NCBI GenBank assembly: GCA_028869095.1
Contig: JAGWTE010000005.1
Location: 1-34,835, forward strand
DNA from: Burkholderiales bacterium
GTDB lineage: Bacteria; Pseudomonadota; Gammaproteobacteria; Burkholderiales; Burkholderiaceae_C
Direction of reading: 5' to 3'
Length of the DNA: 34,835 nt
In this document: positions 5,478 through 25,807 of the stretch, piece after piece
How the letters are laid out: each line of letters begins with the position of its first letter
How positions within the stretch are numbered: the first letter of the stretch is position 1
Notes under the pieces: generated by a model
What the model saw: only the letters and a program-made list of their open reading frames with translations
Told to the model about the DNA's origin: nothing
Database searches by the model: none
Program-made: the position numbers and the translations under genes

Positions 5478-8400
5478 ATGAATGCTCCGCTACCCGACCA
5501 TGTCCTGAAGGCACTGGCATCGCTGTCCTTGGATGACAAGTACACGCTGGAGCGGGGGCGTGCCTTCATGAGTGGGATTCAGGCGCTGGTGCGCTTGCCG
5601 ATCCTGCAGCAAACCCGTGACGCGATGTCAGGTTTGCACACTGCTGGGTTCATCAGTGGTTACCGTGGCTCACCCTTGGGGGGCTATGACCAGGCCTTGT
5701 GGAAGGCCCAATCCCACCTCAGCAAACACAACATCGTCTTTCAGCCCGGCGTCAACGAAGAGTTGGGTGCCACGGCCGTGTGGGGGACGCAGCAGTTGGA
5801 TCTGCACCCCGAGCGGCAACGCTTTGATGGAGTGTTTGGCCTTTGGTATGGCAAGGGGCCAGGCGTGGATCGGTGTTCGGACGTGTTCAAGCACGCCAAC
5901 ATGGCAGGCTCTGCCAAACACGGCGGGGTGATCGCGGTGGCGGGTGATGACCATGCGGCCAAGAGTTCATCCCTGGCGCATCAAAGCGATCACATTTTCA
6001 AAGCCTGTGGGCTGCCGGTTTTCTTTCCCAGTTCAGTCCAGGAGATTCTGGATCTGGGCTTGCACGCTTACGCCATGAGCCGTTTCTCGGGCCTGTGGGC
6101 AGGGATGAAGACCATTCAAGAGGTGGTGGAATCAGCCTCGACGGTGTCCGTCGATCCGGACCGGGTGCGCATCGTGGTGCCCACGGAGTTTGGGATGCCC
6201 AGTGGCGGCTTGAACATCCGCTGGCCGGATACGGCGCTGGAGCAAGAAGCCCGCTTGATGGATTACAAGTGGTATGCGGCGCTGGCTTACATCCGGGCCA
6301 ATAAGCTGAACCAGACCGTGCTGGACTCGCCCAATGCCAAGCTGGGCTTGATGGCCAGTGGCAAGGCCTACAACGATTTGATGCAAGCCCTGCATGACCT
6401 GGGGCTGGATGAAGAGGCTTGCCGGCGCATTGGTTTGCGTGTGCACAAGGTGGCTGTGGTGTGGCCTTTGGAAGCCAGCGCCACGCGTGAGTTCGCCACT
6501 GGGCTGCAAGAGATTTTGGTGATCGAAGAGAAACGCCAGATGATCGAGTACCAGCTCAAGGAAGAGCTGTACAACTGGCGTGAAGACGTTCGCCCCAATG
6601 TGTTGGGCAAGTTCTGCGAGTCAGAGGGGGACCGCACGGGTGGGGAGTGGTCGCAAGAGAACCCCGCCTCGCACTGGTTGCTGCGGGCTCAGGCTGATTT
6701 GAACCCCGCAATCATCGCCAAGGCGGTGGCCCAGCGTCTGGACAAGCTCGGTTTGCTGAAAGACCAGGAGCCGGCCTTGCGTGAGCGGGTTGCGCAACGT
6801 TTGCGGGTGATTGAGGCCAAAGAGCGGTCTTTGAAGGACTTGGCCAAGAGTGCGGAACGGGTGCCTTGGTTCTGCAGCGGTTGTCCTCACAACACGTCCA
6901 CCAAGGTGCCAGATGGCTCGCGTGCTATGGCGGGCATTGGTTGCCACTACATGGCGATGTGGATGGGCCGCCATACCGAGACCGTGTCGCAGATGGGCGG
7001 CGAGGGTGTCAACTGGGTGGGGCAGGCGCCGTTTACAAACGAGCAGCACGTCTTTGTCAATCTGGGTGATGGCACTTACTTCCACTCTGGGTTGCTGGCG
7101 ATCCGGCAAAGCATTGCGGCCAAGGTCAATGTGACCTACAAGGTCTTGTACAACGATGCGGTGGCGATGACCGGCGGGCAACCGGTGGACGGCACGCTGA
7201 GCGTGGCGGCGATGACGCGCGAGTTGGAGGCCGAAGGCGCCAAGCGCATCGTGGTGGTGACCGATGATGTGGACAAGTACACCGAGGTGTGTGACCTGGC
7301 ACCGGGGGTGGCGGTGCACCCGCGTGAGTCTTTGGATGTGATCCAGCGGCAGTTGCGTGAAACGGCTGGCTGCACGGTGCTGATTTACGAGCAGACCTGT
7401 GCGACGGAAATGCGCCGGCGTCGCAAACGCGGCACGGCGCCCAAGCTGGCCAAGCGAGTCGTCATCAATGAGATGGTGTGCGAAGGCTGCGGCGATTGCT
7501 CCGAGCAATCCAATTGCCTGAGTGTGGAGCCGGTGGAAACCGAGTTCGGGCGCAAGCGCCGTATCAACCAGAGTTCGTGCAACCAGGACTTCTCTTGCGT
7601 GAGGGGTTTTTGCCCCAGTTTTGTCACGGTGGAGGGGGGGCAGTTGCGGGCGCCCAAGGCGGGCGACGGCATCCCGACGCTGTCCAGCCTGCCTGTGTTG
7701 CCTGAGCCCGAACTGCCCAGCGCCAAATCGGCCTATGGCATTGTGGTTGCGGGCATTGGTGGCACCGGTGTGATCACCATTGGTCAACTATTGGGCATGG
7801 CGGCGCACTTGGAGGGCAAAGGCATCGTCACGCAGGAGGCTGCGGGGTTGGCCCAAAAGGGTGGGGCGACCTGGAGCCACGTGCAGATCGCCGATCGGCC
7901 GGAAGGGATCTTCACCACCCGTGTGGGCATGGCCGAGGCTGATCTGATCATGGGATGCGACCCGATCGTGGCCGCCCATTCCAGTACCTTGACCATGATG
8001 CGTGAGGGGCGCACCAAGGTGGCTTTGAACACGCATGAGACACCCACGGCAGATCTGGTCCACGAGCCGGGTTGGCAATTCCCCGCCCATCAATGTGACC
8101 ACGCCCTGGGCTTGGCCGTGGGCAAGGGCAATGTGGGGCAGATGGATGCGGTCGAACTGGCCACTCGTTTGCTGGGCGATGCGATCTACGCCAACCCCTT
8201 GATGCTGGGCTATGCCTGGCAGCGGGGGTGGGTGCCTTTGAGTCACTCTGCCTTGCATCGCGCCATGGAGCTCAACGCTGTGCAGGTGGAGCGCAATCTG
8301 GCGGCTTTTGAGTGGGGGCGCCGGGTGGCACACGATACGGCTGCTGTCATGCGCTTGGTGACGCCGGCCCAGCCCATCACCTTGATGCGGCAGCCCAAGG

Positions 8401-9020
8401 AGGCGGTGGAAGATTTGATCAGCCGCCGCCAGGGCTACCTCGTGGGCTACCAAGATGAGGCCTATGCACAGGACTATGTGACCCTGGTGCGGCGTGTGCA
8501 GGCCGCCGAGCGGGCATTGGGCAGCACCAAGCTGACCGAGGCGGTGGCGCGCAACTTGTTCAAGCTGATGGCTTACAAGGACGAGTACGAGGTGGCGCGT
8601 CTGTTGAGTGATGAGGCCTTCCGGCAGCAGATCAGTCAGCAGTTTGAGGGCGACTACAAGCTGGTGTTCAACCTGGCGCCACCGTGGATGGCGGGGCAGG
8701 ATGCCGTGGGGGCGCCGACCAAGCGGGCCTGGGGGCAAGCGTGGTTGCCGCTGCTGCGTTGGCTGCCTCGTCTAAAAGGTCTGCGTGGTAGCTGGATGGA
8801 CCCCTTTGGCTATTCGCAAGACCGCAAGCTGGATCGGGATCTGCTGCAAGAGTACCGGCAACGGGTGGAGCGCTTGTTGTCGGGGCTCAAGGCTCAAAAC
8901 CTGTCTCAGGCTGTGGACATTGCCAGTGTGCCGGACCTGATCAAGGGTTACGGCCACATCCGGATGGCCAACGCCAAGACGGCACGCCAGAAGTGGCAGC
9001 AGTTGCAGCCGAGCGCCTGA
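5478..9020 (+). CDS. Indolepyruvate ferredoxin oxidoreductase family protein (fused, 1180 aa)
   Basis: GYRGSPLGGYDQAL thiamine-enzyme region, 4Fe-4S cysteines (CEGCGDC..CNQDFSCVRGFCPSF), GIGGTGVITIGQLLGMAAHLEGK gamma-type domain. Confidence 0.92.
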   Translation: MNAPLPDHVLKALASLSLDDKYTLERGRAFMSGIQALVRLPILQQTRDAMSGLHTAGFISGYRGSPLGGYDQALWKAQSHLSKHNIVFQPGVNEELGATAVWGTQQLDLHPERQRFDGVFGLWYGKGPGVDRCSDVFKHANMAGSAKHGGVIAVAGDDHAAKSSSLAHQSDHIFKACGLPVFFPSSVQEILDLGLHAYAMSRFSGLWAGMKTIQEVVESASTVSVDPDRVRIVVPTEFGMPSGGLNIRWPDTALEQEARLMDYKWYAALAYIRANKLNQTVLDSPNAKLGLMASGKAYNDLMQALHDLGLDEEACRRIGLRVHKVAVVWPLEASATREFATGLQEILVIEEKRQMIEYQLKEELYNWREDVRPNVLGKFCESEGDRTGGEWSQENPASHWLLRAQADLNPAIIAKAVAQRLDKLGLLKDQEPALRERVAQRLRVIEAKERSLKDLAKSAERVPWFCSGCPHNTSTKVPDGSRAMAGIGCHYMAMWMGRHTETVSQMGGEGVNWVGQAPFTNEQHVFVNLGDGTYFHSGLLAIRQSIAAKVNVTYKVLYNDAVAMTGGQPVDGTLSVAAMTRELEAEGAKRIVVVTDDVDKYTEVCDLAPGVAVHPRESLDVIQRQLRETAGCTVLIYEQTCATEMRRRRKRGTAPKLAKRVVINEMVCEGCGDCSEQSNCLSVEPVETEFGRKRRINQSSCNQDFSCVRGFCPSFVTVEGGQLRAPKAGDGIPTLSSLPVLPEPELPSAKSAYGIVVAGIGGTGVITIGQLLGMAAHLEGKGIVTQEAAGLAQKGGATWSHVQIADRPEGIFTTRVGMAEADLIMGCDPIVAAHSSTLTMMREGRTKVALNTHETPTADLVHEPGWQFPAHQCDHALGLAVGKGNVGQMDAVELATRLLGDAIYANPLMLGYAWQRGWVPLSHSALHRAMELNAVQVERNLAAFEWGRRVAHDTAAVMRLVTPAQPITLMRQPKEAVEDLISRRQGYLVGYQDEAYAQDYVTLVRRVQAAERALGSTKLTEAVARNLFKLMAYKDEYEVARLLSDEAFRQQISQQFEGDYKLVFNLAPPWMAGQDAVGAPTKRAWGQAWLPLLRWLPRLKGLRGSWMDPFGYSQDRKLDRDLLQEYRQRVERLLSGLKAQNLSQAVDIASVPDLIKGYGHIRMANAKTARQKWQQLQPSA

Positions 9021-9078
9021 ACTTCACCACATCTTCACGGCTTGAGCGGGCGTGCGGGTGTGTGCTTTCGGTTAGGGT

Positions 9079-10080: not shown

Positions 10081-11000
10081 TGGAGGCAGTCCACTTGCGT
10101 GGCGATGGATGCGGGCAAGGGGTGTTGGCCGCGGATGACGTCCCGGATGTAGTCGGCCGTGGTCTGGGCGTCGATCTCGGTGGGCAGGTCTGGCAGGTCT
10201 ACCAGGACGCCTTCTTGCGGCGTGCGGCTCAGGTCTGCGCGTTTGTGGCCAGCCACAAACACATCAAAGCGAGGTTGGCGGCGGGCATCGGCCACCGGCT
10301 CGCCCTCGGTGCCGCGCATCAGCAGGGCGCGGGCATGGGTGTGTTCCAGATAGCTGGTCAGAGACACGGCGTATTCCGGGTGCGTGTGGTTGACCACGCG
10401 GATGGAGGGCACACCGGCTGAGGCAAAGGGATCCAGAATCTTGGCCACCGTGTGGCCGGGGTTGCGCAAGCCCACCACCCAGCGCACATCCAATAACTTG
10501 GCCAATGGCCGACACAAAGTCGCCGTGTCCATGAAGGCGGGTTGCCCTTGTTGCCAGGCCGCTTGCAAGCCCACGGCATCGGCCACGATGGGCCACTGCA
10601 GGGCTTCAAAAATCTGACCTGTGGTGACCCGGGTTTTGTCTTGTGGACCATGAACGAGCACGGACAGGCCGCGCTGGGACAAGGCCCAGGCCAGTAGCGC
10701 CGTCAAATTGGGCAGCTTGCGGGCCCCGTTGTACGAGGGCAAGACCACCACCGGGCGGTGCAGCGCCGTTGCGGCCTCGGCCAGCGAGATGCTGTGTTCG
10801 CTGGCGGCTTGCACAAAGCCTTCCAGTTCGGACACCTCTTCTCCCTTGATGCGCATGGCCAGGCAAAAGGCGCCGATTTCCAGATCCGTCACTTGACCGG
10901 AGAACACTTGGTTCAACAGGTCGTGGGCTTGCTCGACGGTCAGAGGGCGCGCGCCATCTTTGCCTCGGCCGATGGTTTTGAGGTACGCGGCGATGCTCAT
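10062..11000 (-). CDS. ybiB: YbiB/TrpD2-like DNA-binding protein (anthranilate phosphoribosyltransferase-like fold)
   Basis: TrpD-like N-terminus LTVEQAHDLLNQVFSGQVTDLEIGAFCLAMRIKGE; RNPGHTVAKILDPF; start overlaps nasA stop (ATGA). Confidence 0.88.
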   Translation of the reverse strand: MSIAAYLKTIGRGKDGARPLTVEQAHDLLNQVFSGQVTDLEIGAFCLAMRIKGEEVSELEGFVQAASEHSISLAEAATALHRPVVVLPSYNGARKLPNLTALLAWALSQRGLSVLVHGPQDKTRVTTGQIFEALQWPIVADAVGLQAAWQQGQPAFMDTATLCRPLAKLLDVRWVVGLRNPGHTVAKILDPFASAGVPSIRVVNHTHPEYAVSLTSYLEHTHARALLMRGTEGEPVADARRQPRFDVFVAGHKRADLSRTPQEGVLVDLPDLPTEIDAQTTADYIRDVIRGQHPLPASIATQVDCLHQALLA

Positions 11001-13831
11001 GGTGAGGTGGGCGTCGAGGCGTCCAGTGGGTGAAGCTTGATGATCTTGCGCAACTCAGGGATGCACGAGCCGCAATTGGTGCCGCATTTGAGTTGGCCCT
11101 GAAGCTGCGCCAGTCGGCTGTCGATGTCACCCTGGCATTGCTTGAGCGTGTCCACAATGTGGGGCTCGGTCACATTGAAGCAGGTGCAGACCTGGCGGCC
11201 TTTGCTCTCGACTTTGACGGGGGGCTCGGCGCCGGGAGAGAGCAGGGCGCGGCCATAGGCGTCGGCCAGCAACTCGTCTTGCAGCAGCGGTTTGATCCAG
11301 GCCTCGGCACTGATGTCGCCTGCCAGTACAAAGGCTTCCAGGCGCAGGCCATCTGGATGGCGATCCAGCTTCATCGAGCGTCGTTGGCCTTGCGTGCGGT
11401 CTTGGTAGTGCAGTATGTCTACGCCCTTCATGCCCAGGACGGACTCGATCTGGTCGTAGACCTCGTCGCTGCAGGCTTCCAGACCTGCTGCGCGGAACAG
11501 CACACCGACCTTGCCCTTTTCGTTCGGCTCGCGGCCGAACGGCACGCAGCTGGTGAAGGCAAAGGTTTGCATCAGCGGTTTGAGGGCCTCGCGGGCGGCC
11601 AGGGCTTCGTTTTCTGGCAGCCAAGCCACCGCCAGCAAGCGCCAAGGCAGATGGGGCATGGTGATGCGCACGGCCGCATGCTTGAGCTCGGGTTGCTTGG
11701 ACTTGGGGCAGAACGCCGGGTTGGTCAGTGTGTTCACGCCCGCCACAGGCGAGCCTTTGGCGTCGATGCCGCTGAGGTATTCCTGGCCCCAATGCATGGC
11801 CATGTAGGTTTGCATGGGCGCCATGGCCTCGCTGGCCTGGGCCGGGGCAATGAGTTGGCCTCGGCGAGATGCCACCTGAACCAGGTCACCGTCCTTCAGC
11901 CCCAGGCGAGCCATGTCTTGCGGGTTCAACTCCACACAGGGCTCGCTGACGTGGCCAAACAAGCGGCCCAAGGAGCCCGTGCGGCTCATGCCGTGCCATT
12001 GATCGCGCAGGCGGCCGGTGTTGAAGCTGAAGGGATAACGCTGATCCCGTGGTTCGGCCACAGGCTCATAGCGCATGGCACTGAAGTGGGCTCGGCCATC
12101 TTCGGTAGGGAAGCGGCCGTCTTCATACAGGCGGGCTTGGCCTTGTGCCGCGCCTTGGGGCATGGGCCATTGCTGAGGGCCTTGCTCTTGAAGGATGGCG
12201 TAGCTCAGGCCTGTGATATCGAGGTCGCGCCCACGGGTGGATTCACGGTGTTCGTTCCAGACCGATTCGGCATCGGTGTAGGGGAACAGTGTCTCCACGC
12301 CCGGACGGTAGTGCGACTTGCGTTGCGGCAGGCGTGCTTCCAGGCGGCGGCCCACATCGGCCAAGATGTCCCAGTCGTGTCGAGCCTGAGCTGTGGGCGC
12401 AATGGCCGGGCGCACGCGGCTGATGCGGCGTTCGCTGTTGGTGACGGTGCCGTCTTTTTCACCCCAGGTGGTCGCGGGCAGCAAAATATCGGCAAAGGCG
12501 CAGGTGGCCGTGGTGGCAAAGGCTTCTTGCACGATGACCAGTTCAGCCTTTTCCAAGGCCTTGCGCACCGTGGCTTGGTCGGGCATGGACTGGGCCGGGT
12601 TCGTGCAGGCAATCCACAGGGCTTTGATCTCGCCCCGAGCTGCGGCTTCAAACATCTCCACAGCCGTCATGCCAGCTTGTGCCGGCACTTCGTCGACGCC
12701 CCACAGGCTGGCCACTTCGGCGCGGTCTTGCGCGCTGGACAGGTCACGGTGGGCCGACAGCAGGTTGGCCATGCCACCCACTTCACGTCCGCCCATGGCA
12801 TTGGGCTGGCCGGTCAGCGAGAAGGGGCCCGCACCGGGGATGCCGATCTGGCCGGTAGCCAGATGCAGGTTGATCAAGGCGGCGTTCTTATCCGTGCCGC
12901 TGCTGCTTTGGTTCAAGCCTTGGCAGTACAAGGACAGCGTGGGTGTCTGCCCACCAAACCAACGCGCGGCCTGGATCAGATCGTCTTTGGCGATGCCGCA
13001 GACGGAAGCCACCACATCGGGATTGAAGTCCTGCACGATGGCCTGCAAAGCCTCAAAGCCGTTGGTGTGCTTTTGCACATAGGCCATGTCGATCAGGCGT
13101 TCGGCCAGCATCACATGCAGCATGCCGTGGAACAGGGCCACATCGGTGCCGGGCAGGATCTGCAGGAACAGATCGGCCATCTCGGCAGTTTCCGTGCGGC
13201 GAGGGTCGGCCACGATCAGCTTCATGGCCGGGTTGGCGCGACGGGCGTCGTCAATGCGGCGGAACAGGATCGGGTGCGCGTAGGCGGTGTTGGCGCCCAC
13301 GATGAACAGGGTTTGGGCGTGCTGGAAGTCGTCGTAGCAAGCCGGGGGCGCGTCCGAGCCCAGCGTGGCTTTGTAGCCGGCCACGGCGCTGCTCATGCAC
13401 AAGCGCGAGTTGGTGTCCAGGTTGTTGGTGCCGATCAGGCCTTTGACCAGCTTGTTCAGGACGTAGTAGTCCTCGGTCAGCATTTGGCCGGAGCCGTAAA
13501 AGCCCACGGCTTGTGGGCCGTGGCGTTGGATGATGCTGGCGATGCGATCGGCGGCGTCGTCCAGGGCCGCATCCCAACTGATGGCGGTGGGGGCTTCGCC
13601 GCGTTGTGCTCGGCGCATGGGTTGAGCCAGCCGCGTTTGTTGCCGAATGGATTCAGTCGCGGTCAGGTGCAGTGTGCTGCCTTTGGTGCACAGACGGCCA
13701 AAGTTGGCGGGATGGGTTGGATCACCCACCACGTTGATGATGCGCCCTTGGCGGGATTCAATCAGCACGCCACAACCTGTCCCACAGTAGGGGCAAGTTG
13801 CGCGCGTTTGTGTGGTGGTCACTTCACTCAT
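10997..13831 (-). CDS. nasA: Assimilatory nitrate reductase catalytic subunit with C-terminal BFD-like [2Fe-2S] domain
   Basis: CPYCGTGCGV 4Fe-4S motif, Mo-Cys region NSRLCMSSAVAGYK, C-terminal CTCFNVTE...CGTNCGSCIPELRKII. Confidence 0.93.
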   Translation of the reverse strand: MSEVTTTQTRATCPYCGTGCGVLIESRQGRIINVVGDPTHPANFGRLCTKGSTLHLTATESIRQQTRLAQPMRRAQRGEAPTAISWDAALDDAADRIASIIQRHGPQAVGFYGSGQMLTEDYYVLNKLVKGLIGTNNLDTNSRLCMSSAVAGYKATLGSDAPPACYDDFQHAQTLFIVGANTAYAHPILFRRIDDARRANPAMKLIVADPRRTETAEMADLFLQILPGTDVALFHGMLHVMLAERLIDMAYVQKHTNGFEALQAIVQDFNPDVVASVCGIAKDDLIQAARWFGGQTPTLSLYCQGLNQSSSGTDKNAALINLHLATGQIGIPGAGPFSLTGQPNAMGGREVGGMANLLSAHRDLSSAQDRAEVASLWGVDEVPAQAGMTAVEMFEAAARGEIKALWIACTNPAQSMPDQATVRKALEKAELVIVQEAFATTATCAFADILLPATTWGEKDGTVTNSERRISRVRPAIAPTAQARHDWDILADVGRRLEARLPQRKSHYRPGVETLFPYTDAESVWNEHRESTRGRDLDITGLSYAILQEQGPQQWPMPQGAAQGQARLYEDGRFPTEDGRAHFSAMRYEPVAEPRDQRYPFSFNTGRLRDQWHGMSRTGSLGRLFGHVSEPCVELNPQDMARLGLKDGDLVQVASRRGQLIAPAQASEAMAPMQTYMAMHWGQEYLSGIDAKGSPVAGVNTLTNPAFCPKSKQPELKHAAVRITMPHLPWRLLAVAWLPENEALAAREALKPLMQTFAFTSCVPFGREPNEKGKVGVLFRAAGLEACSDEVYDQIESVLGMKGVDILHYQDRTQGQRRSMKLDRHPDGLRLEAFVLAGDISAEAWIKPLLQDELLADAYGRALLSPGAEPPVKVESKGRQVCTCFNVTEPHIVDTLKQCQGDIDSRLAQLQGQLKCGTNCGSCIPELRKIIKLHPLDASTPTSP

Positions 13832-14312: not shown

Positions 14313-16304
14313 TCAATGACGCAGAGGGGCCACGCCCACTTGAGGCATGTTGGCCAGACCGATGTCGCGGGCATGTTCCTCAAAGCCCTTGTTCTTCCAG
14401 AAGAAGGCACCGGGCATGGTGGTGGGAATGACCAGGACATAGAACAAGGCACGGCTGACCAGGCTGGTGAACACGGCCGTGGCGGCCACTACACCCCAGC
14501 CCAACCAGGCAGGCAGGCCGGTCTGGCCCAAGGCCAACATGCTGGTCAACAGACCGGCAGCCAGCAGGGCATTGCTGCCCAGCAAGGCATTGCGCAGGAT
14601 GAAGGTCTTGCCGAAGGTGGTGCTTTGGATGTAGTAAGAAGCGCCGCCTTCATGTTCGGCACGGCCCATGTCGCGGGCATGGCCGGTGTGGCCCACGCCT
14701 TCGATCACCAAGCCCAGCGCCACCAGGGCAGCGAACAACTCGGCGGTGCCTTGCACGGCGTGGCCCGTCAGTGCCAATGTGCTCAAGACCACGGCGCCGG
14801 CCAGCAAGCCACCCAGGGTCAGCGCGGTGCCGATGAAGGCGGTGCTGACTTGCCAGTGGTTCCAGAACGGACGGGCCTTGATGCGGTAGCACTTGTTCAT
14901 GTAGTAGATGCCAACCACGCTGGACGCCACCGCCAGCACACCGCAGGCATTGGCCAGGCGATGCGCCAGATCAGGGGCGATCAGCTGGGTGACATCCAGG
15001 CCCAACAGGCTTTGCGCCAAAGACTGGAACAGCGTGTTCGCTGGCAGGCTGAACACGATGTGCAAGCCCAGCATGCCGATGAACAAGGCGATGCCCAGCC
15101 CTTCACGCGACACGGGCGAATGACGCAGGTTGTTGAAACCGCGATAGAAGCGATGAGGCTTACCCAAGTGCAAGGTGGACATGAACAGACCGAAGGCCAC
15201 CAACACGAAGTTCAAGATGGCCAAGGGTGCGTAGACCACCGATTGGGCAAAGGCCACAAAGCCATCCAACCCAGCCAGCGCGCCCAGGAACTGCATGGCA
15301 AAGGCGCCTGCGGTCATTTGAGCGGCCAGGGTGAACATCACCAAGGGGTTCTCACGCGAGCTCAGGCGGGCCATGTTCCAGTGTTTGGCCTTGCCTTTTT
15401 TCTGGTCGATGGCGGGCTTGTACTGGCCGTTCTCGTCCTTGTGGTACTTCACCGGCATCGAGTCGGTGCGCTTCATCTCGTCCGGCAACTGCTTGATCTG
15501 CTGAAAGCGGATGTTGGGGTGCGTGATCTCGGGGCTGGGGAAACCGGGGATCTCGACGCGGGCTTGCTCGCGCTTCTCAGGCACGTTTTCGATCACGCCA
15601 AAGTCCAGCGCATTGCCCACGCAGGCTGACACGCAAGCGGGCTTGAGGCCGACTTCCAGGCGGTCCACGCACATATTGCACTTGGAGACACGGCCTTTGA
15701 CCGGGTCCAGCTGCGGTGCGTTGTAAGGGCACACCCAGGTGCAGTAACCGCAACCAAAGCAGGTTTCAGGGTCTTGCAACACGGCGCCGTATTCCACGTG
15801 CTTGGTGTAGGCGCGGGTGGGGCAGCCCTTCAAGCAAACGGGGTCATCGCAATGGTTACAGGCCATCGAGATGTTCATGCGCTTGTAGTCGGGGTAGCTG
15901 CCGCCTTCCACATAGCCCACGGAGCGGAAGGCCAGGTGGGGCGGGTTCTCGTTCTTTTCGCTGCAAGCCGCTTCACAGGCGTGGCAGCCAATGCAGTTGT
16001 CGGCCGTGAAGAAAAAGCCGTGCTGTTTGTTGCGGTTGGGGTTGCTGCCAACGGCCGGGTTTTCGTTGATGAACATCGAGCGACCGACGGGCAGCTTGCC
16101 CTCGGTGTGCGCAATCAGGTCGATCTTCTGGCCGTAGCGGTTGGTGTCCTTGTTGTTCTTGTCGCGTAGGAAAGCGTAGTACTGCTCTTCGGTGCGGATT
16201 TCCCAAATCTTGCGTTGTTTGGGCTTGGCGTTGGCCTGGCTATGTGCCTGGGCGTTGGCGATGTCAGCTTGAGCGGTCTCGCCGACTTTTGGATTTTCTG
16301 TCAT
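14313..16304 (-). CDS. Fused DmsB-like four-cluster ferredoxin and DmsC-like membrane anchor (663 aa)
   Basis: Four Cys clusters CIGCHACEAAC, CNHCDDPVCLKGCP, CFGCGYCTWVCP, CNMCVDRLEVGLKPACVSAC, followed by about 330 aa of polytopic DmsC-like sequence. Confidence 0.9.
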   Translation of the reverse strand: MTENPKVGETAQADIANAQAHSQANAKPKQRKIWEIRTEEQYYAFLRDKNNKDTNRYGQKIDLIAHTEGKLPVGRSMFINENPAVGSNPNRNKQHGFFFTADNCIGCHACEAACSEKNENPPHLAFRSVGYVEGGSYPDYKRMNISMACNHCDDPVCLKGCPTRAYTKHVEYGAVLQDPETCFGCGYCTWVCPYNAPQLDPVKGRVSKCNMCVDRLEVGLKPACVSACVGNALDFGVIENVPEKREQARVEIPGFPSPEITHPNIRFQQIKQLPDEMKRTDSMPVKYHKDENGQYKPAIDQKKGKAKHWNMARLSSRENPLVMFTLAAQMTAGAFAMQFLGALAGLDGFVAFAQSVVYAPLAILNFVLVAFGLFMSTLHLGKPHRFYRGFNNLRHSPVSREGLGIALFIGMLGLHIVFSLPANTLFQSLAQSLLGLDVTQLIAPDLAHRLANACGVLAVASSVVGIYYMNKCYRIKARPFWNHWQVSTAFIGTALTLGGLLAGAVVLSTLALTGHAVQGTAELFAALVALGLVIEGVGHTGHARDMGRAEHEGGASYYIQSTTFGKTFILRNALLGSNALLAAGLLTSMLALGQTGLPAWLGWGVVAATAVFTSLVSRALFYVLVIPTTMPGAFFWKNKGFEEHARDIGLANMPQVGVAPLRH

Positions 16305-16319
16305 GGCAGTCCCTCAGGT

Positions 16320-18566
16320 TTAGAACGCGCGGCGCTCAAGGTTCAAACGAGCGGCTTCTTTTTGGTCGATCTTCTCGACGCGAACGGCGTTTTGCTTGAA
16401 GGCAGGTTGCCGAGAGTGAGGGTCCAGCAGACCCAGGGTCAGTCGGTTGACGCAATCGTGGAAGTGGAAGGGGATGAACAACATGTCCCGGCCCACGCGC
16501 TGCGTCAGCTGCACCATGACCACGGCATCGCCACGTCGGCTGACCAGGCGCACATAGCTTTGATGCTCGATGCCCAACTCATCGGCGGCATCGGGGTTCA
16601 TCTCCATGTACGGCGTGGGACTGAACTTGTTGCAGTTGCCGATCTTGCCGGTGCGGGTGCGGGTGTGGAAATGCTCGACCACACGGCCGGAGTTCAACCA
16701 GAAGGGGTATTCGCTGTCCGGGCATTCGTTGTTGTTCACGAAGCGGATCGGCAGCAGGTTGGCGCGGCCATCCGGTGTCTGGTATTGGCCGTCCGTGTAC
16801 AAGCGAGGGTTGCCCAGATAAGGCTTGCGCGCGAGCATGTCCAGGCCGTTGGATTCACCAATCGCCTGTGCATCTTGTTCAGCTTGCGCTTCGCTGTAGG
16901 GCCACTGGATGCCGCGAGCGGCTTCGATGCGGTCGTAGCTCATGCCCGAGATGTCCAGCGTGCGGCCTTCGCCCTTGGACAGTTCACGCATTTCATTGAA
17001 CGCGCCTTCCGCCGTGGCCGGGAAGTGGATCTTGTTGCGGTCTTCAAACCGCTTGGACATCTCGTTGAAGATCCAGAAGTCGGGCTTGCTGTCGGCATAG
17101 GCGGGCAACACATTGCGCGTCAGGTTCACGCGGCGCTCGGTGTTGGTGTGGCAGCCTTCCTTTTCGGCCCACACAGCAGCAGGGAAGTACACGTGCGAGT
17201 ACTTGTTGGTCTCGACGTCTTCATACACGTCTTGCACCACCAAGAATTCGAGGTTCTCCATCGCCTTGCGGATGCGAGGCTGGTTGGGCATGGAGGTCAT
17301 GGGGTTGGTGGCCACCAGCCACAGGCCCTTGATTTCACCCGTTTCAATGGCAGGGAAGATATCGGTTTGCGACAAGCCGCGTGCGGGCGGGAAGAAGCTC
17401 TCGTCAATGCCCCAGAACTCGGCAATGTGCTTGCGGTCTTTTTCCTTCTCCAGCAGACGATAGCCAGGCAGGCCCGAGCAAGACGACCATTCGCGCGTGC
17501 CCATGGCATTGCACTGGCCGGTGATCGACAAGCTAGTGCCACCGGGCTTGCCGATGTTGCCGGTGATCAGGTTCAGGTTGTTGATGTTGACGACGCCGTC
17601 CGAGCCGTGTGTGGACTGGTTGATGCCCATCGTCCAGATGCTCATGGCCGCAGGGGCCTTGGCATAGATGCGCGCCACGGTGCGAATGCGGTCTTCGTCG
17701 ATGCCGCAAATGTGCTGCGCCGTCTTGGGATCGTAGTCAGCCAGCAGCGTGCGCAGATCTTCGATGCCCTTGGTGTGCTTGGCGATGTAGTCGTCGTCCT
17801 GCAGACCTTCCTTGAAGATCACATGCATCATGGCATTGATCAACACGGTGTCGGTGCCGGGCGTGATGGGCAAGTGAATGTCGGCAAACTGGGCCAGCAT
17901 GGTCACGCGAGGGTCCACCACGATCAGCGGGAACTTGCGCTTTTCCAGTGCTTCCTTGAGGCGCCAGTAGATGATGGGGTGCTGCTCAGGCAGGTTCGAG
18001 CCAAAAGCCATCAGGCAGTGCGTGTGCTCGAAATCGCCATAGCAGCCCGGAGGGCCATCTGAGCCGAACGAGCGCTTGTAGCCCGACACGGCAGATGCCA
18101 TGCACAGCGTCGTGTTGCCGTCGTAGTTGTTGGTGCCGATCTGGCCGCGCACCAGCTTGCCCAGGGTGTAGAACTCTTCGGTCAAGAGCTGACCGGTCGA
18201 GACCACGGCAAACGAATCACGGCCATATTTGGCCTGGATCTCTTTGATCTTGGCCGCCGTGACGTCCATGGCCTTGTCCCAGCTGGTGGGCTGAAAGGGC
18301 AGGTGGGCCTTGTCACGCATCAACGGCACTTTGCCGCGACCGGGCGAGTCAAAGAGTTCGTGTTCCAGCAAGCCTTTGATGCACAGCTTGCCACGGTTGA
18401 CGTCCGAGCCCGCGTGGCCCCGGCTGGTGACGATCCTGCCGCTGTCGTTCAAGCCGATCTCAATGGAGCAGCCGGTTGAGCAGTAGTTGCAGGTGGTGTA
18501 TTTCCACTCCTTCACATCCTTGACGGGAATGGCGATGGGTTTTCTGTTTTTGCGACCGAAGATCAT
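16320..18566 (-). CDS. Molybdopterin oxidoreductase, Nas/Nap-type nitrate reductase catalytic subunit (748 aa, no export signal)
   Basis: CNYCSTGCSIEI FeS motif; TTLCMASAVSGYKRSFGSDGPP parallels the NasA Mo-Cys region; bis-MGD C-terminal domain. Confidence 0.9.
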   Translation of the reverse strand: MIFGRKNRKPIAIPVKDVKEWKYTTCNYCSTGCSIEIGLNDSGRIVTSRGHAGSDVNRGKLCIKGLLEHELFDSPGRGKVPLMRDKAHLPFQPTSWDKAMDVTAAKIKEIQAKYGRDSFAVVSTGQLLTEEFYTLGKLVRGQIGTNNYDGNTTLCMASAVSGYKRSFGSDGPPGCYGDFEHTHCLMAFGSNLPEQHPIIYWRLKEALEKRKFPLIVVDPRVTMLAQFADIHLPITPGTDTVLINAMMHVIFKEGLQDDDYIAKHTKGIEDLRTLLADYDPKTAQHICGIDEDRIRTVARIYAKAPAAMSIWTMGINQSTHGSDGVVNINNLNLITGNIGKPGGTSLSITGQCNAMGTREWSSCSGLPGYRLLEKEKDRKHIAEFWGIDESFFPPARGLSQTDIFPAIETGEIKGLWLVATNPMTSMPNQPRIRKAMENLEFLVVQDVYEDVETNKYSHVYFPAAVWAEKEGCHTNTERRVNLTRNVLPAYADSKPDFWIFNEMSKRFEDRNKIHFPATAEGAFNEMRELSKGEGRTLDISGMSYDRIEAARGIQWPYSEAQAEQDAQAIGESNGLDMLARKPYLGNPRLYTDGQYQTPDGRANLLPIRFVNNNECPDSEYPFWLNSGRVVEHFHTRTRTGKIGNCNKFSPTPYMEMNPDAADELGIEHQSYVRLVSRRGDAVVMVQLTQRVGRDMLFIPFHFHDCVNRLTLGLLDPHSRQPAFKQNAVRVEKIDQKEAARLNLERRAF

Positions 18567-18593: not shown

Positions 18594-18950
18594 TTAAGCC
18601 GATTTCTCAACAGGATCCAGCGCGAGCTGGGTGAGCTCTGCCACATTGAGATGAACGATGCCGTTTTCCACCTTGACGCTGAACTTGGGTGTGCTGCCTT
18701 CGTCAGGGGCGTGAGCACACCCGTTTTCCAAGCCGATGGTCCAGTTGTGCAGTGGGCAAGCCACGCTGTGACCAAACACCAAGCCTTGAGACAGGGGGCC
18801 GCCTTTGTGCGGGCAGCGATCGAGCAGCGCGAAGACTTGGTCGTCTTCAGCTCGAAACACTGCGACCTGGCAGCCGTGATCTCGTTGGACACGACGTGCG
18901 CCAAGTTTGGGTATGTCTTCCACCTGGCAAATCGGTTTCCATTCGGACAT
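18594..18950 (-). CDS. nirD: NirD-like Rieske [2Fe-2S] protein
   Basis: CPHKGGPLSQGLVFGHSVACPLHNW Rieske ligands; NirD length; beside nirB and nitrate reductase. Confidence 0.88.
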   Translation of the reverse strand: MSEWKPICQVEDIPKLGARRVQRDHGCQVAVFRAEDDQVFALLDRCPHKGGPLSQGLVFGHSVACPLHNWTIGLENGCAHAPDEGSTPKFSVKVENGIVHLNVAELTQLALDPVEKSA

Positions 18951-19028: not shown

Positions 19029-19835
19029 TCAGGTCAGCTGGCTGTAGAGACTGGTCACGTGATCCATCAGCGTCAGCAGCCGTTCACTGGATGCAAACAC
19101 CTCGACGGCGTGTTTCTTCGTGTTGGTGGCCTCCGTCAGGCGCTGCAAGGCGTTGTCAAAAAAGACCCATTGCTGCGAAGCAATCTCGATTTCTTGACGG
19201 ATCTGATTGGTGGCCTCGGGCGCATCTGCCAACACGGTCAAGGCCCGTTGAAATTCATCACGGGCTTTGTTTAACTCGTTGACTTGATCGGGAACCAGCG
19301 CGCCCCAGCGATTGCTCAAGTAGTACTTGGCCATGCGCTGCGACAGCATCCGCTGGCGTCCGGCCAGGTTCACCAACTTGCCAACCGAGTGGCCTGAGAA
19401 CTTCTCCAACTGGACCGTTCCTTGGTTGGCCAAGGCCAGGACCATGTTGTCCAGCTTGATCAGCGAAGGCGTGGTGTTGACGGCGGGCGATGCCCCCACC
19501 AACACGCCCTTGTATTCGCTCCAAATGGATTCGAGCGCCGAATAGGTCGACTTGATTTCGGCGTTAGGGGCGAACGCTTTGAGTTCAACGAACTGTCGAT
19601 CAAACAAGGCCATCGAATCAAACAAGATCTTTTCAGCCTTGCTGGATTCAACGTCCTGGCCGACCGCCAGCCACGCTTTGGCCATGCGCTGGGACAGCAT
19701 GCGCTGGCGCCCCGCCTTGTTGATGGCCTCGTTGATTCCATTGATTTGAGCCACAGCAGGGAACGCTGCCATGGCCACGCCTGCGGCGACGCCGCATTTC
19801 AAGATATGTCTACGGGAGTACAACACTGGGATCAC
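19029..19835 (-). CDS. Exported protein with two PilJ/NarX-like N-terminal-type (P-box) segments
   Basis: SRRHILK twin-arginine-like signal and AFPAVAQ; AGRQRMLSQRMAK occurs twice. Confidence 0.85.
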   Translation of the reverse strand: MIPVLYSRRHILKCGVAAGVAMAAFPAVAQINGINEAINKAGRQRMLSQRMAKAWLAVGQDVESSKAEKILFDSMALFDRQFVELKAFAPNAEIKSTYSALESIWSEYKGVLVGASPAVNTTPSLIKLDNMVLALANQGTVQLEKFSGHSVGKLVNLAGRQRMLSQRMAKYYLSNRWGALVPDQVNELNKARDEFQRALTVLADAPEATNQIRQEIEIASQQWVFFDNALQRLTEATNTKKHAVEVFASSERLLTLMDHVTSLYSQLT

Positions 19836-19849
19836 CTGTCAATTTCCGG

Positions 19850-22282
19850 TCAGATTGATAAGGGTTCAAACTGACGGGTATCGACCTTGGCGCGATCGAA
19901 GTCGAACCAGGGATCCGGTTCCCCGTCGAGAGAGAACTGGAGCTTGGCCCAAAGGGCTTGGCGATACTCAGGGTTTTCCAGTATCTTGGCTTTGACGTAA
20001 TCCAAACCAACGCGGCTCACATAGTGGCAAGTGCGCTCCAAATACCAACCTTCTTCGCGGTATAGCTGCAAGAACGCGCCGGAGTACTCCAACACCTCTT
20101 GCGGTGTCTTGACCTTCACAAAGAAGTGCGCCACCTCGGTTTTGATGCCGCCGTTGCCAGCCACATACAACTCCCAGCCAGAGTCGACCCCGATCACGCC
20201 CACGTCCTTGATGCCGGCTTCAGCGCAGTTGCGGGGGCAGCCCGACACGGCCAGCTTGACCTTGTGGGGGGCATACATGCGCCACAACGCCTTTTCCAAG
20301 TCCTTGCCCATTTGGGTGGAGTCTTGCGTGCCAAAACGACACCACTCGCTGCCCACGCAGGTCTTCACGGTGCGCAGGCCCTTGGCGTAGGCGTGGCCGC
20401 AAGGCATGCCAATGTCTTTCCAGACATTGACCAGGTCTTCTTTCTTTACGCCCAGCAAGTCGATGCGCTGGCCGCCCGTGACCTTGACCGTTGGGATCTT
20501 GTACTTGTCCACGGCATCAGCAATGCGGCGCAGCTCGTCTGCTGTGGTCTCGCCGCCCCACATGCGGGGCACGACCGAGTACGTGCCATCCTTTTGGATG
20601 TTGGCGTGGCTGCGCTCGTTGATCAGGCGGCTTTGTGGGTCGTCTTGCGCCTCTTTGGGCCAAGTGCTGATCAGGTAGTAGTTGATGGCCGGGCGGCAGC
20701 TGGCACAACCATTGGCCGTGCGCCAGCCCAAGGTCTTGTAGACGCCATCGATGGTGAGGATCTTTTGATCGCGGATGGCCTCGCGCACATCCTGGTGGCT
20801 GTGGTCGGTGCAGCCGCACATCGCCTTCTTCTTGGGCGTGGCCGAATAGTCGCCGCCAGCGGTGAACATGATCAGTTGTTCAACCAAGCCGGTGCAGGAT
20901 CCGCAAGACGCGCTGGCCTTGGTGTGCTTGCGCACTTCGTCCAGGGTGAACAGGCCCTTGTCCTTGATCGCCTTGCAGATGGCACCCTTGGTGACGCCGT
21001 TGCAGCCGCAAACCTCGTCAGTGTCGGCCATCGCGGCGGCCTTGTTGTGGCCTTCGTGGCCGGTGTCGCCAATGTTGGACTCGCCAAACATCAGGCGATC
21101 ACGCTTGTCGCGGATGCAATTGCCTTCGCGGATCAGCTTGAAGTAGTAGCTGCCATCCACCGTGTCGCCATACAGGCAGGCGCCCACCAGCTTGTTGTCC
21201 TTGATGACCAGCTTTTTGTAGACGCCGCCAAAGGGGTCGGACAAAACCATCTCTTCGGTGCCGTCGCCACCCATGAAGTCGCCCGCCGAGAACAGATCAA
21301 TGCCGGTGACCTTCAGCTTGGTCGAGGTTTGCGAGCCGGTGTAGCGGCCGATGCCGAACATGGCCAAGTGGTTCGCGCACACCTTGCCTTGCTCAAACAA
21401 GGGGGCGACCAGGCCGTAGGCAATGCCACGGTGCGCTGCGCATTCGCCGACCGAATACACGCGAGGGTCGGTCACGGTTTGCATGGTGTCGGTCACCACG
21501 ATGCCACGGTTGCAATGCAGGCCAATCTTTTCAGCCAGTTCGGTGTTGGGGCGGATACCGGCAGCCATGACGACCAGGTCGGCCGGCACTTCGGTGCCGT
21601 CTTTGAACTTGACCGCCTTGACGCGATCGTCTTCGCTGCCCACCAACTCTTGCGTTTGCGCGCCGATGCGGAACTGCAAACCACGCTCTTCCAGCGAACG
21701 TTGCAGCATCTTGCCCGCCACGTCGTCCAGCTGGCGCTCCATCAGCCAGGGGGCAATGTGCACCACCGTCACGCTCATGCCGCGCAGCATCAAACCGTTG
21801 GCCGCTTCCAGGCCCAGCAAGCCGCCGCCGATGACCACGGCGTGCTTGTGCGTCTTGGCCGTGTCGATCATCGTGTTGGTGTCGGCGATGTCGCGGTATG
21901 CGATCACGCCCTTCAAGTCCTTGCCGGGCACGGGCAAGATGAAGGGGTTCGACCCTGTGGCGATCAGCAGGCGGTCGTATTCGGCTTCCGTGCCATCCTC
22001 GGCGATGACCACCCGACGGGTACGGTCCACGTGCGTCACCTTCTTGTGGGTGTGCAGCGTGATGCCGTGCTCAGCGTACCAATCCAGAGGGTTGAGAATG
22101 ATCTCGTCGATCGTTTGTTCGCCCGCCAGCACGGGTGACAGCAAAATGCGGTTGTAGTTGGGATGAGGCTCAGCGCCGAATACGGTGATGTCGTACAAGT
22201 CGGGGGCGACCTTCAACAGCTCTTCCAGGGCGCGAACCCCAGCCATACCGTTGCCGATCAAAACAAGCTTCATCTTCTTCAT
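19850..22282 (-). CDS. nirB: NAD(P)H nitrite reductase large subunit
   Basis: KLVLIGNGMAGVRALEELL FAD domain, BFD-like Cys motifs, siroheme/4Fe-4S motifs TCVGSEWCRFG and SGCPRNCAEA. Confidence 0.97.
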   Translation of the reverse strand: MKKMKLVLIGNGMAGVRALEELLKVAPDLYDITVFGAEPHPNYNRILLSPVLAGEQTIDEIILNPLDWYAEHGITLHTHKKVTHVDRTRRVVIAEDGTEAEYDRLLIATGSNPFILPVPGKDLKGVIAYRDIADTNTMIDTAKTHKHAVVIGGGLLGLEAANGLMLRGMSVTVVHIAPWLMERQLDDVAGKMLQRSLEERGLQFRIGAQTQELVGSEDDRVKAVKFKDGTEVPADLVVMAAGIRPNTELAEKIGLHCNRGIVVTDTMQTVTDPRVYSVGECAAHRGIAYGLVAPLFEQGKVCANHLAMFGIGRYTGSQTSTKLKVTGIDLFSAGDFMGGDGTEEMVLSDPFGGVYKKLVIKDNKLVGACLYGDTVDGSYYFKLIREGNCIRDKRDRLMFGESNIGDTGHEGHNKAAAMADTDEVCGCNGVTKGAICKAIKDKGLFTLDEVRKHTKASASCGSCTGLVEQLIMFTAGGDYSATPKKKAMCGCTDHSHQDVREAIRDQKILTIDGVYKTLGWRTANGCASCRPAINYYLISTWPKEAQDDPQSRLINERSHANIQKDGTYSVVPRMWGGETTADELRRIADAVDKYKIPTVKVTGGQRIDLLGVKKEDLVNVWKDIGMPCGHAYAKGLRTVKTCVGSEWCRFGTQDSTQMGKDLEKALWRMYAPHKVKLAVSGCPRNCAEAGIKDVGVIGVDSGWELYVAGNGGIKTEVAHFFVKVKTPQEVLEYSGAFLQLYREEGWYLERTCHYVSRVGLDYVKAKILENPEYRQALWAKLQFSLDGEPDPWFDFDRAKVDTRQFEPLSI

Positions 22283-22328
22283 GAACAGCTCCTCAGCGCG
22301 GAGACAGAAATCGTTATGACCTAGATCA

Positions 22329-22478: not shown

Positions 22479-24215
22479 ATGAGTTTTGACTTGGACATCG
22501 GGTACGCCAGCCAGAAAGGCCCGCGCACCGATTTGGAAGATTTCGCAGCCGTCGGCCAACCCTCGCCCCATGAAGAGGCATGGGGTGTGGTGGCGGCCAT
22601 TGCCGATGGCGTGTCTGCAGGCGGCTTGGGCCGCGAGGCCGCGCAAACGACCGTGATGGCTTTGCTGCAGGACTACTACGCCACGCCCGCCACCTGGGAC
22701 ACGACGGTGGCCTTGGACCGCGTCATCGCTGCGCAAAACGCCTGGTTGGCAGACCACAACCGCCGACGCGCGGGCCACAAGCAAGACGGTGCGGCTCAAG
22801 CAGCCATGACCACCTTGACCGCCGTCGTGTTGCGCGGTCACAGCTACACCCTGGCGCATGTGGGCGACAGCCGAGCCTACTTGATCCGTGGGGGCGACTG
22901 CGTGCAGCTCACCCAAGATCACACCCTTGGCACCCTTGAATTTCAAAATGGCTTGACTCGCGCCGTGGGCTTGGACGATGGCCTTCGCGTGGACTACGAA
23001 GAGGGCGAGCTGCAGATCGGCGACACCTTTGTGTTGACCACCGATGGCGTGCACGGTGTGCTCAAGCGTCAAGCCGTGCTGGATCTGGCGCGAGATGGGT
23101 CTGCACAGGACGCCAGCGAAGCCTTGGTGGCCAAAGCCTTGGCCGCCAATGGCCGCGACAACGCTACTGCCTTGGTGATTCGGGTCAAAGGCTTGGCCGC
23201 AGCGCGGCTGGAGGATGCCCACCGCCGGGGGCGCCAACTGCCGGTTCCGGCCAAGCTCGTGGCGGGGGATACCTTGGACGGTTTGACGGTCGATGCCTGC
23301 GTGTTTTCAAACGGCGTGCACCGTGTCTACAAGGTTCGCGATACAGCGCGTGGGCTGACCTATGCGCTCAAAACCTTGCACGAAGCCCGAGCCAGTGACC
23401 CCGAAGAGCGCGCCATGCTGGCGCACGAGGCCTGGTTGGGCGCGCGGGTCACGGAGCGCAAAGACACCGGGCTGGTGCGCGTGTATGAACCGGTTGACCC
23501 CAGTTGCTTCTACACGCTGTTTGAATGGGTCGATGGCGCCATGCTCAGCGACATGTTGGCGCGCAAGCAGGCCTTCAGTGTGACCGACGTGGTGGCAGGC
23601 ATTTCAGACGTGGTGCGGGCCTTGGGTCGCTTGCACCAATTTGGCGTCATCCACCGTGATGTCAAACCGGAGAACGTGCTCAAAGGCGTCGATGGCCAAT
23701 GGCGTTTGATGGATCTGGGGGTGGCACTGTCGGGTAAAGAGCCGGAGTCCTTGAAAGTGCTCCACGCCGGAACGCCCAGCTACATGAACCCCGAACAATG
23801 GGATGACGACCCTGCGGTCTCTCGGGCTGATTCACAAAGCGATCTGTTCGCTTTGGGGGTGACGCTGTATCAATGGTTGACCGGGCGCCTGCCTTACGGT
23901 GAGGTGGAGCCTTACCAGACAGGGCGATTCAGGCGTGTCAACCCGATCGCTCCCTCGCGCTTGCGCCCGGATGTGCCGATCTGGTTGGATCACATCGTGC
24001 TCAAGGCCATTGCCAAAGACAAAAAGCAGCGCTTTGAAACGGCGGAAGAAATGCTGCTGGCGCTGGACCGTGGTGCCTCCCGGCCTTTGTCTGCTTTGGC
24101 CGCGACCCCTTTGGTGGGACGCGATCCCGCTGATTTGTGGAAGGTGGCGTTGGCTGTGTCCGTGCTGCTCAATTTGTTGCTGGTCTACTGGTTGATGTTC
24201 CTGCCTAAAGGGTGA
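22479..24215 (+). CDS. Bifunctional PP2C phosphatase / Ser-Thr protein kinase with C-terminal TM
   Basis: PP2C motifs (AIADGVSAGGLG, VGDSRAYLI, GRDNATALVIRV) then kinase motifs (YALKTL, HRDVKPENV, MDLGVA, GTPSYMNPEQW); terminal hydrophobic helix. Confidence 0.95.
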   Translation: MSFDLDIGYASQKGPRTDLEDFAAVGQPSPHEEAWGVVAAIADGVSAGGLGREAAQTTVMALLQDYYATPATWDTTVALDRVIAAQNAWLADHNRRRAGHKQDGAAQAAMTTLTAVVLRGHSYTLAHVGDSRAYLIRGGDCVQLTQDHTLGTLEFQNGLTRAVGLDDGLRVDYEEGELQIGDTFVLTTDGVHGVLKRQAVLDLARDGSAQDASEALVAKALAANGRDNATALVIRVKGLAAARLEDAHRRGRQLPVPAKLVAGDTLDGLTVDACVFSNGVHRVYKVRDTARGLTYALKTLHEARASDPEERAMLAHEAWLGARVTERKDTGLVRVYEPVDPSCFYTLFEWVDGAMLSDMLARKQAFSVTDVVAGISDVVRALGRLHQFGVIHRDVKPENVLKGVDGQWRLMDLGVALSGKEPESLKVLHAGTPSYMNPEQWDDDPAVSRADSQSDLFALGVTLYQWLTGRLPYGEVEPYQTGRFRRVNPIAPSRLRPDVPIWLDHIVLKAIAKDKKQRFETAEEMLLALDRGASRPLSALAATPLVGRDPADLWKVALAVSVLLNLLLVYWLMFLPKG

Positions 24216-24336: not shown

Positions 24337-25593
24337 TCAGGCCTTCACGGTGTTGTCGCGGTAAGCGCCCGAGGTGCTACCGGTGGTGCGTGCGCGGCCA
24401 CCCTTTTCAGCCCAGGTGCGGGTCCAGCGGATTTGCATGACGCGCATCATCACCAGAGACAGCACAGCCAGCACGGCAATCGCGACGAAGCCACCGAGGT
24501 AGCTGCCCGTGTGCGTCTTGGCCAGGCCCATGGCGTTGGGGACCAAACCGCCGCCCAGGGCGCCAATTTCACCAATCATCGAACCGGCCACAGCAGTGGT
24601 CAGAGGCCAGCGCAGGGGCACCAGTTGGAACAGGGCGCCATTGCCCGTACCCAGGGCCGCAAAGCACAGCATCAGCAGCAGGGTCGTCAAGATCAACGAA
24701 TCACCAGCCATGCCAGCCAGGACCAGGGAGATCGCCACGGTGATGATCACCACGGTCAAGGTGTTCACGCCGCCCCAACGGTCGGAGATCCAGCCGCCAA
24801 AGATGCGCAGCGCGGCAGCCATGAAAGCAGCCAGCATGGTCAACTGACCGGCTTGCACCTTGCTCACATGGAATTGCTCGTAGTAGTAGCTGGGCAGGAA
24901 GGAGGTCAAACCAATGAAACCGCCAAAGGTCACGCCGTAGATGATGCTGAAGGCCCAGCCATCTTTTTCAAACAAACAGGCAATGTGCTCGCGGAACGAA
25001 GCGTGGGCGTCGCGGTCAGGTGGTTCTTTGGCGAAGAAAATCATCACCAGCATGGGCAGGCAGATCGCGATGGCGGCAAAACCATAGACCGTTTGCCAGC
25101 CGTAGGCTTGGGCCAGGGGAGGGGCCACCAGCACCGACACAGCCGTGCCGACGTTACCCGCGCCCACCAAACCCATGGCCAGCCCCTTGTACTTGGGTGG
25201 GAACCAGCCAGAACCCAGCGACAGCGCCACGCCGAAACTGGCGCCCGCGATACCCAGCAGTGCACCCATGGCCAAGAGGTTGTCAAAGGTGTGCACGTAA
25301 AAGTAGCCATAAATCATGGCGACGGCGATCATGCTCATCTCGACCAGGGTCGCTGCTTTGCGGCCCACATACTGCGCCAGGATGCCCAGCGGAAAGCGCA
25401 TGAATGCGCCCGCAAAAATCGGGATCGACAGCATCAGCCCCTTCTGCGCAGCCGTCAGCTTCAGGTCTTCGGTGATGAAGGGGGCCATGGCGCCATTCAT
25501 CACCCAGATGCAGCACGAAAACGCAAAGTACAGAAACGATGCAAACAAGGTTGGGGCGTGCCCCGCCTTCAGGAAGGATTTGAAATCTGACAT
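24337..25593 (-). CDS. NarK/NasA-type MFS nitrate/nitrite transporter
   Basis: MFS topology; nitrate-signature-like segments [21 protein letters not shown] and [20 protein letters not shown]. Confidence 0.92.
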
Positions 25594-25653
25594 GAGTAAC
25601 CTCAGCGTTGTTGGCTCAGCCTTCGTTGGCCAAGTCCTTGTGCAGGGTCCTAA

Positions 25654-25669
25654 AGCGAGATCCGTGCCA
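25654..25669 (-). promoter_or_regulatory. Sigma54-like promoter of the nitrate transporter gene
   Basis: Minus strand TGGCACGGATCTCGCT: perfect TGGCACG, N4, TCGC; GG-N10-GC spacing. Confidence 0.6.
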
Positions 25670-25678
25670 GCGCAGTGC

Positions 25679-25693
25679 GCTTCACTTTGGTGC
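25679..25693. promoter_or_regulatory. Possible NtrC-like half-conserved palindrome
   Basis: GCTTCA-CTT-TGGTGC, 10/12 of GCACCA-N3-TGGTGC. Confidence 0.4.
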
Positions 25694-25807
25694 GCGATCC
25701 GTGAGCAGAAAATCAAGCGCCCTGCGCTGGCTCAAAAACCATCCGCGCTGGTGGTGTCAGAAATGCCCCGCGATCGGGGACAATCCGCTCAGTTCACAGG
25801 AGATTGC

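Follow-up and report, generated by a model that had tools for sequence, protein, structure and literature searches.

The nitrate operon of the window (the whole stretch of 34,835 nucleotides analysed here) encodes a stand-alone tandem-PilJ protein, which we tentatively read as a soluble, exported nitrate/nitrite-binding protein that may capture or buffer these ions at the membrane. The parts of this reading differ in strength: the protein is very likely exported; its sequence and predicted fold indicate that it probably binds nitrate or nitrite; and they point, with somewhat less assurance, to two repeats that jointly make up one shared putative site, in the manner of NasR, and not to a separate site for each. 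An earlier note on this DNA is corrected or extended as to the strand, the nearest relative, how old the family is, the route of export and the probable single-site architecture.

The gene, its operon and its distribution

The ORF list gives the gene exactly the place it had in the earlier note and puts it on the minus strand, which that note had left unsaid. It lies among the following genes:

24337..25716, minus strand: NarK-type nitrate/nitrite MFS transporter (TIGR00886 232.7 bits, under the cut-off of 311.7)
22479..24215, plus strand: fusion of a PP2C phosphatase and a Ser/Thr kinase (Pfam), a recurrent neighbour of the family
19850..22285, minus strand: nirB, nitrite reductase large subunit (TIGR02374 935.9 bits)
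19029..19835, minus strand: stand-alone tandem-PilJ protein, 268 aa with a GTG start (ORF call and Pfam PilJ)
18594..18950, minus strand: nirD, nitrite reductase small subunit (TIGR02378 91.9 bits, exceeding the cut-off of 74.65)
16320..18566, minus strand: NasA-type molybdopterin nitrate reductase (Pfam Molybdopterin 9e-66; NasC-like, under the equivalog cut-offs)

NirB and NirD are thus named by NCBIfam and, with NasA/NasC-type reductases and a NarK-type MFS transporter present, the nitrate-operon setting proposed earlier is borne out. The minus-strand order is NarK-type MFS, NirB, tandem-PilJ protein, NirD, NasA-type reductase, Fe-S/DmsC-type membrane subunit, a reductase with a BFD-type C-terminus and, last, a gene that we tentatively take to be YbiB-like; the PP2C-kinase fusion intervenes between narK and nirB, on the plus strand. 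The GTG start of the tandem-PilJ gene is 14 nt past the nirB stop codon, and nirD starts 78 nt beyond the end of the gene. No minus-strand promoter- or terminator-like sites were found inside the operon, and a candidate leader RNA 5′ of nirB folded no better than shuffled sequences (z 0.93). Further along the operon, the NasA-type reductase is followed by the Fe-S/DmsC-type fused membrane subunit (14313-18566, minus strand), and the two may make up an assimilatory nitrate reductase that is linked to quinol and exists alongside the usual enzyme; a second, BFD-containing reductase is encoded in the same operon at 10997-13831.

The window comes from a metagenome-assembled genome that is 72% complete and in which no other PilJ matches were found. 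The same genome encodes a REC-ANTAR NasT-like protein (L141), NrtC/D, and a NIT-ANTAR NasR-like protein adjoining a second nirB/nirD-like pair (L142), so that candidate regulators and an ABC uptake system exist besides the tandem-PilJ protein. At L142:3466-7894 (contig C285), the nirB/nirD-like pair, recognized by sequence inspection, and the NIT-ANTAR gene are accompanied by a gene for a 4HB-HAMP-GGDEF-EAL protein.

Among 151 genomes drawn from the window's family, 112 have NirB and 27 have a protein of the tandem-PilJ type, which marks the latter as an optional addition. The gene is placed directly 3′ of nirB in 21 of these 27 genomes, elsewhere in five and on contigs too broken to tell in one, while nirB lies in the same cluster at 37 of the 80 named loci; some of the named loci belong to the same organisms as the numbered genomes, and the counts of 21 of 27 and 37 of 80 are therefore not independent. 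Of 398 Pseudomonadota genomes, 22 gave a hit to the profile, a few of these hits being ANTAR-fused or of other architecture, and a plasmid collection yielded only three matches, all distant. In the tree, one fully supported clade of 40 takes in 37 of the 39 nirB-linked rows; the copies at L131 and L134 came independently to their place in a nas cluster, and a distinct clade, again fully supported, unites the ANTAR-fused PilJ pairs. Judged from these sequences, the stand-alone tandem-PilJ family is old, stands as a separate clade and spans several classes of Pseudomonadota. Derivation as a fragment detached from a neighbouring receptor is rejected, since stand-alone and ANTAR-fused pairs occupy separate supported clades, and the term 'detached sensor' used earlier is misleading for the same reason. 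A search of the literature, mostly of journals open without subscription, found no paper on stand-alone PilJ proteins or ANTAR-PilJ fusions.

The surroundings of the relatives vary. The order is narK-PilJ2-kinase at L131 and L134 and nrtABC-PilJ2-narK-kinase, in one row, at L177; the PilJ pair follows narGHJI at L101 and L180 and stands amid siroheme-decarboxylase, NirJ and cytochrome d1 (heme-d1) genes at L122 and L125. At L131 a NasT-like gene is also present, next to NasS/NrtA-like ORFs. Many copies from Rhodocyclales, Oxalobacteraceae and Gammaproteobacteria lie amid unrelated housekeeping genes. The PP2C-Ser/Thr kinase fusion of the window (22479-24215) recurs in distantly related lineages (L131, L134 and L177), again near narK, nirB and the PilJ pair. 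In Ralstonia and Cupriavidus, a 262-aa protein is encoded directly before the exported PilJ pair (L105:8187-8975 and L126:8175-8963); it combines an N-box-bearing PilJ segment with a short stretch of MCP signalling domain (tested in L105) and has no obvious signal peptide. Exported paralogues of the PilJ pair are found near the molybdenum cofactor gene moaA (L048:8285-11323, L049:6250-8176 and L190 around 8160-9038); those at L048 and L049 stand two or three in tandem, their first box being degenerate (e.g., TARNRALSQ), and such degenerate-box paralogues might bind another oxyanion.

Nitrate boxes, export leader and predicted fold

The repeat noticed earlier is real: AGRQRMLSQRMAK is present twice in the tandem-PilJ ORF, coded at 19677-19715 and 19326-19364, and the two 39-nt stretches share 34 identical bases. 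Together with the three residues preceding it, each copy makes an exact match to the published nitrate-site N-box, [IVL]-[ND]-x-A-G-x-Q-R-M-L-[ST]-Q (PMC6381276). The parts of the protein are, from its N-terminus:

19749..19835, minus strand: Tat-like signal peptide, residues 1-29, with SRRHILK and the putative cleavage site AVA|Q (by sequence)
19395..19736, minus strand: module 1, predicted PilJ four-helix bundle with helices 34-59, 64-88, 92-114 and 119-147 (AlphaFold; Pfam stretch 28-112)
19724-19689, minus strand: N-box 1, INKAGRQRMLSQ, a full N-box match with G42 and R45 invariant in 76 homologues
19041..19388, minus strand: module 2, predicted PilJ four-helix bundle with helices 150-177, 184-204, 210-234 and 240-265 (AlphaFold)
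19373-19338, minus strand: N-box 2, VNLAGRQRMLSQ, a full N-box match with G159 and R162 invariant in 76 homologues

No further N-box turns up in any of the six frames of the window; from its composition such a protein should contain about 3e-9 by chance, and the longest exact repeat in 2000 shuffles of the protein did not exceed six residues. In an alignment of 76 stand-alone homologues G42, R45, R50, G159, R162, M163 and Q166 are invariant, and with them both G-x-x-R nitrate motifs. The boxes are 117 residues apart in the window protein, and in a set of 80 copies, consisting of this protein and copies from the fetched loci, the distance is 117 residues in 66, 116 in 11 and 115 in three. Pfam PilJ (PF13675) matches the protein in two stretches at 2.1e-23 (83 bits against a gathering cut-off of 26.6) which, with the two canonical nitrate boxes, upholds the earlier assignment to the PilJ/NarX-like sensor family; the NCBIfam NarX model scores 14.8 bits against a cut-off of 578. 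The earlier note had also seen no HAMP, kinase or MCP domain, and indeed none of these (MCPsignal for the last) has a Pfam match in the protein, where Pfam finds PilJ and a sub-threshold TAT_signal and no output domain. Pfam NIT (PF08376) likewise gives no match, although the overall fold aligns to NasR.

The leader of the window protein has the features of a Tat substrate, namely the twin-arginine motif SRRHILK, a moderately hydrophobic core and an A-x-A site (AVA). The Pfam TAT_signal score is 16.8 bits, under the cut-off of 22.7, and TatC is present in the same genome as pieces on two contigs. Over the same set of 80 copies, 55 leaders have RR and 25 are hydrophobic, Sec-type leaders without it; the mean Kyte-Doolittle maximum of the hydrophobic core is 1.89 in the former and 2.74 in the latter (p = 1.6e-11), and a simple pattern finds the A-x-A site in 64. 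The Tat export proposed earlier agrees with the RR leader of the window protein; Tat is not essential to the family, since relatives outside the Comamonadaceae-like group often have Sec-type leaders, and we reject it as a family-defining trait in view of these distant members. Leader type changes by lineage and export is kept, which points to the periplasm as the place of work.

The AlphaFold model (pLDDT 92.4, pTM 0.87) has eight helices in two four-helix bundles, the leader being its main low-confidence part. As all Foldseek E-values were above 0.1, weight was put on probability, TM-score and agreement with the sequence. By these measures each bundle resembles the PilJ domain of nitrate-bound McpN, the match of one module to the McpN ligand-binding domain having probability 1.00 (TMt 0.73, rmsd 2.4, 25% identity, E-value 0.2), and the best match of the whole chain is NasR 4akk (probability 0.91, TMq 0.52, 266 columns). 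A profile search of the PDB also placed McpN first (8e-9), followed by PilJ (1e-5) and NarQ (1e-3), with NarX and NarQ spanning 1e-3 to 0.3. Among solved structures the PilJ domain of McpN is thus nearer than NarX/NarQ, with which the earlier note had suggested comparison. The fit of the full chain to the tandem PilJ receptor 8wdf was poor (TMq 0.25, rmsd 22), so the halves are probably arranged otherwise than in that receptor, and its arrangement is disfavoured as a model for this chain. McpN binds nitrate across its dimer axis with R61 (PMC6381276), and the NIT domain of NasR has eight helices (PMC7496416) and binds nitrate similarly, with two arginines in an asymmetric site (review PMC8199190). 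These nitrate-site arginines have their counterparts here in R45 (helix 1) and R162 (helix 5); this correspondence, the fold match and the NasR and McpN precedents make one putative site between the halves the natural reading.

Proposed role and its alternatives

In the mechanism that we propose, the Tat-type leader would direct the chain to the periplasm and then be cleaved, and the remaining 239 residues are predicted with high confidence to fold as two PilJ four-helix bundles. The N-box helices H1 and H5 would face each other, with R45 and R162 lining the one anion site between them, as the fold match and the conserved residues suggest; this putative site would amount to an internal copy of the two-subunit site of McpN, NarX and NarQ and resemble the one-chain site of NasR. 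Nitrate or nitrite would then most likely be captured or buffered at the membrane during uptake, export or reduction. By itself the protein would be unable to signal, as it has neither a transmembrane nor an output domain; it is made with NirB and NirD, its relatives stand beside NarK, NrtABC, NarGHJI and nir genes, and capture or buffering is for these reasons the likeliest role. The position of the gene among transport and enzyme genes, not regulators, counts the same way. Against it count the presence of the nitrate ABC transporter ATPase NrtC/D in 25 of the 27 genomes bearing the gene, which makes a separate capture protein look redundant, the cost of a buffer that spends one binding protein per ion, and the many copies, noted above, that lie amid housekeeping genes. 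A stand-in for a missing NrtA is disfavoured by the same NrtC/D count, and the chaperone role suggested earlier found no support.

Our preference for capture or buffering over a co-receptor role is a guarded one. As a periplasmic co-receptor, the nitrate-loaded protein would dock on the external part of a receptor in the membrane, through which a kinase, cyclase or chemoreceptor would be informed. TorT docks on TorS likewise, and inside the cell NreA, the soluble nitrate receptor for NreB, is a precedent. PilJ domains are signalling modules, the small protein with PilJ and MCP-signal segments is encoded directly upstream in Ralstonia and Cupriavidus, and a HisKA-containing protein follows the exported PilJ pair at L128. 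Yet no receptor gene adjoins the pair in the nas, nar, nir and nrt loci examined, and L131 has its own NasT-like gene and NasS/NrtA-like ORFs. Moreover, in three near-complete relatives (G131, G133 and G006, 97-100% completeness) the other PilJ matches lie only in one protein of 759-796 aa, which we take to be the type IV pilus receptor PilJ and which is apparently the sole other PilJ protein there. No separate NarX- or McpN-type PilJ partner occurs in these genomes, so that partnership with such a receptor is rejected as a general rule, and we regard the co-receptor role as the less likely of the two.

Binding of another anion (e.g., sulfite, chlorate or molybdate), with the operon place serving that anion, is more doubtful still. 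An extra arginine per box in almost all members (GRQRM, where McpN has alanine after the glycine) and the paralogues with an altered box 1 that adjoin moaA speak for it, as does the binding of sulfite by NarX and NarQ (PMC6381276), but both boxes are exact nitrate N-boxes and the intact form is found repeatedly amid nitrate and nitrite genes. That the protein is a decaying remnant of a receptor, functionless after loss of its output domain, would fit a chain that is exactly the sensor part of a receptor; it is hardly credible for a clade that has lasted so long, keeps its site residues invariant and its spacing and export conserved, and has repeatedly entered nitrogen operons, the more so as the stand-alone family does not branch from within the ANTAR-fused one.

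PilJ, NarX and NIT modules are understood as nitrate sensors within membrane-crossing receptors or RNA-binding regulators. That a secreted, output-free module of this kind is conserved near nas, nar, nir and nrt genes implies either that the module also works outside signalling or that there is a soluble nitrate co-receptor not recognised before. The protein might represent a new class among periplasmic oxyanion-binding proteins, made out of a receptor module in place of the classical two-lobe fold; its single-chain NasR-like site would belong to a secreted chain that serves transport or reduction in place of signalling, or that is itself the diffusible ligand of a membrane receptor, the type IV pilus PilJ for example. 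A single-chain, two-box putative nitrate binder would also be a natural starting point for a nitrate biosensor.

Comparison with known systems

The closest likeness per half is to the PilJ domain of McpN, the nitrate chemoreceptor of P. aeruginosa (PDB 6gcv), with which the protein shares the Pfam domain, the N-box and the fold. McpN has one PilJ domain, arranges two chains around one nitrate and is membrane-bound with an MCP output, whereas the tandem-PilJ protein has two domains in a single exported chain and no output. Nitrate is not a ligand of all PilJ domains, which counts against binding by the tandem-PilJ protein: the PilJ receptor of P. aeruginosa does not bind it, though the N-box is not conserved there (PMC6381276). 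With NarX and NarQ the protein has in common the G-x-x-R motif of the P-box and a weak sequence-profile match, but these have a single sensor domain per chain, and the HAMP and kinase domains are absent here. NasR, the NIT-ANTAR antiterminator (PDB 4akk), is also an eight-helix, one-chain sensor, whose site, by the literature, holds one nitrate with two arginines. It is cytoplasmic and carries an ANTAR domain, while the tandem-PilJ protein has neither ANTAR nor a Pfam NIT match; and NasR has lost one glycine, where the tandem-PilJ protein keeps both glycines and both arginines.

The REC-ANTAR-PilJ-PilJ proteins of nas clusters (about 425 aa) share the tandem PilJ module and the genomic neighbourhood, but have an RNA-binding domain and no export leader and form the separate, fully supported clade described above; their box 1 is mostly AGQLRM, that of the stand-alone proteins AGRQRM. 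They were seen at L043:13720-14994, L044:7161-8462 and 16 further loci of Comamonadaceae-like bacteria, all in one clade and with GRQRM in box 2, and are apparently NasR-type antiterminators in which a PilJ pair replaces the NIT domain. The top Foldseek matches of a model of such a protein were only of REC/ANTAR type (EutV, AmiR) and uninformative on how the PilJ halves pair. NreA of staphylococci is, like the tandem-PilJ protein, stand-alone and soluble, without an output domain and concerned with nitrate regulation (PMC8199190), but it has a GAF fold, is cytoplasmic and acts on NreB. NrtA and NasF of the ABC importers share the presumed periplasmic binding of nitrate or nitrite; they belong to an unrelated, NMT1-like family, which co-occurs with the PilJ pair at L177.
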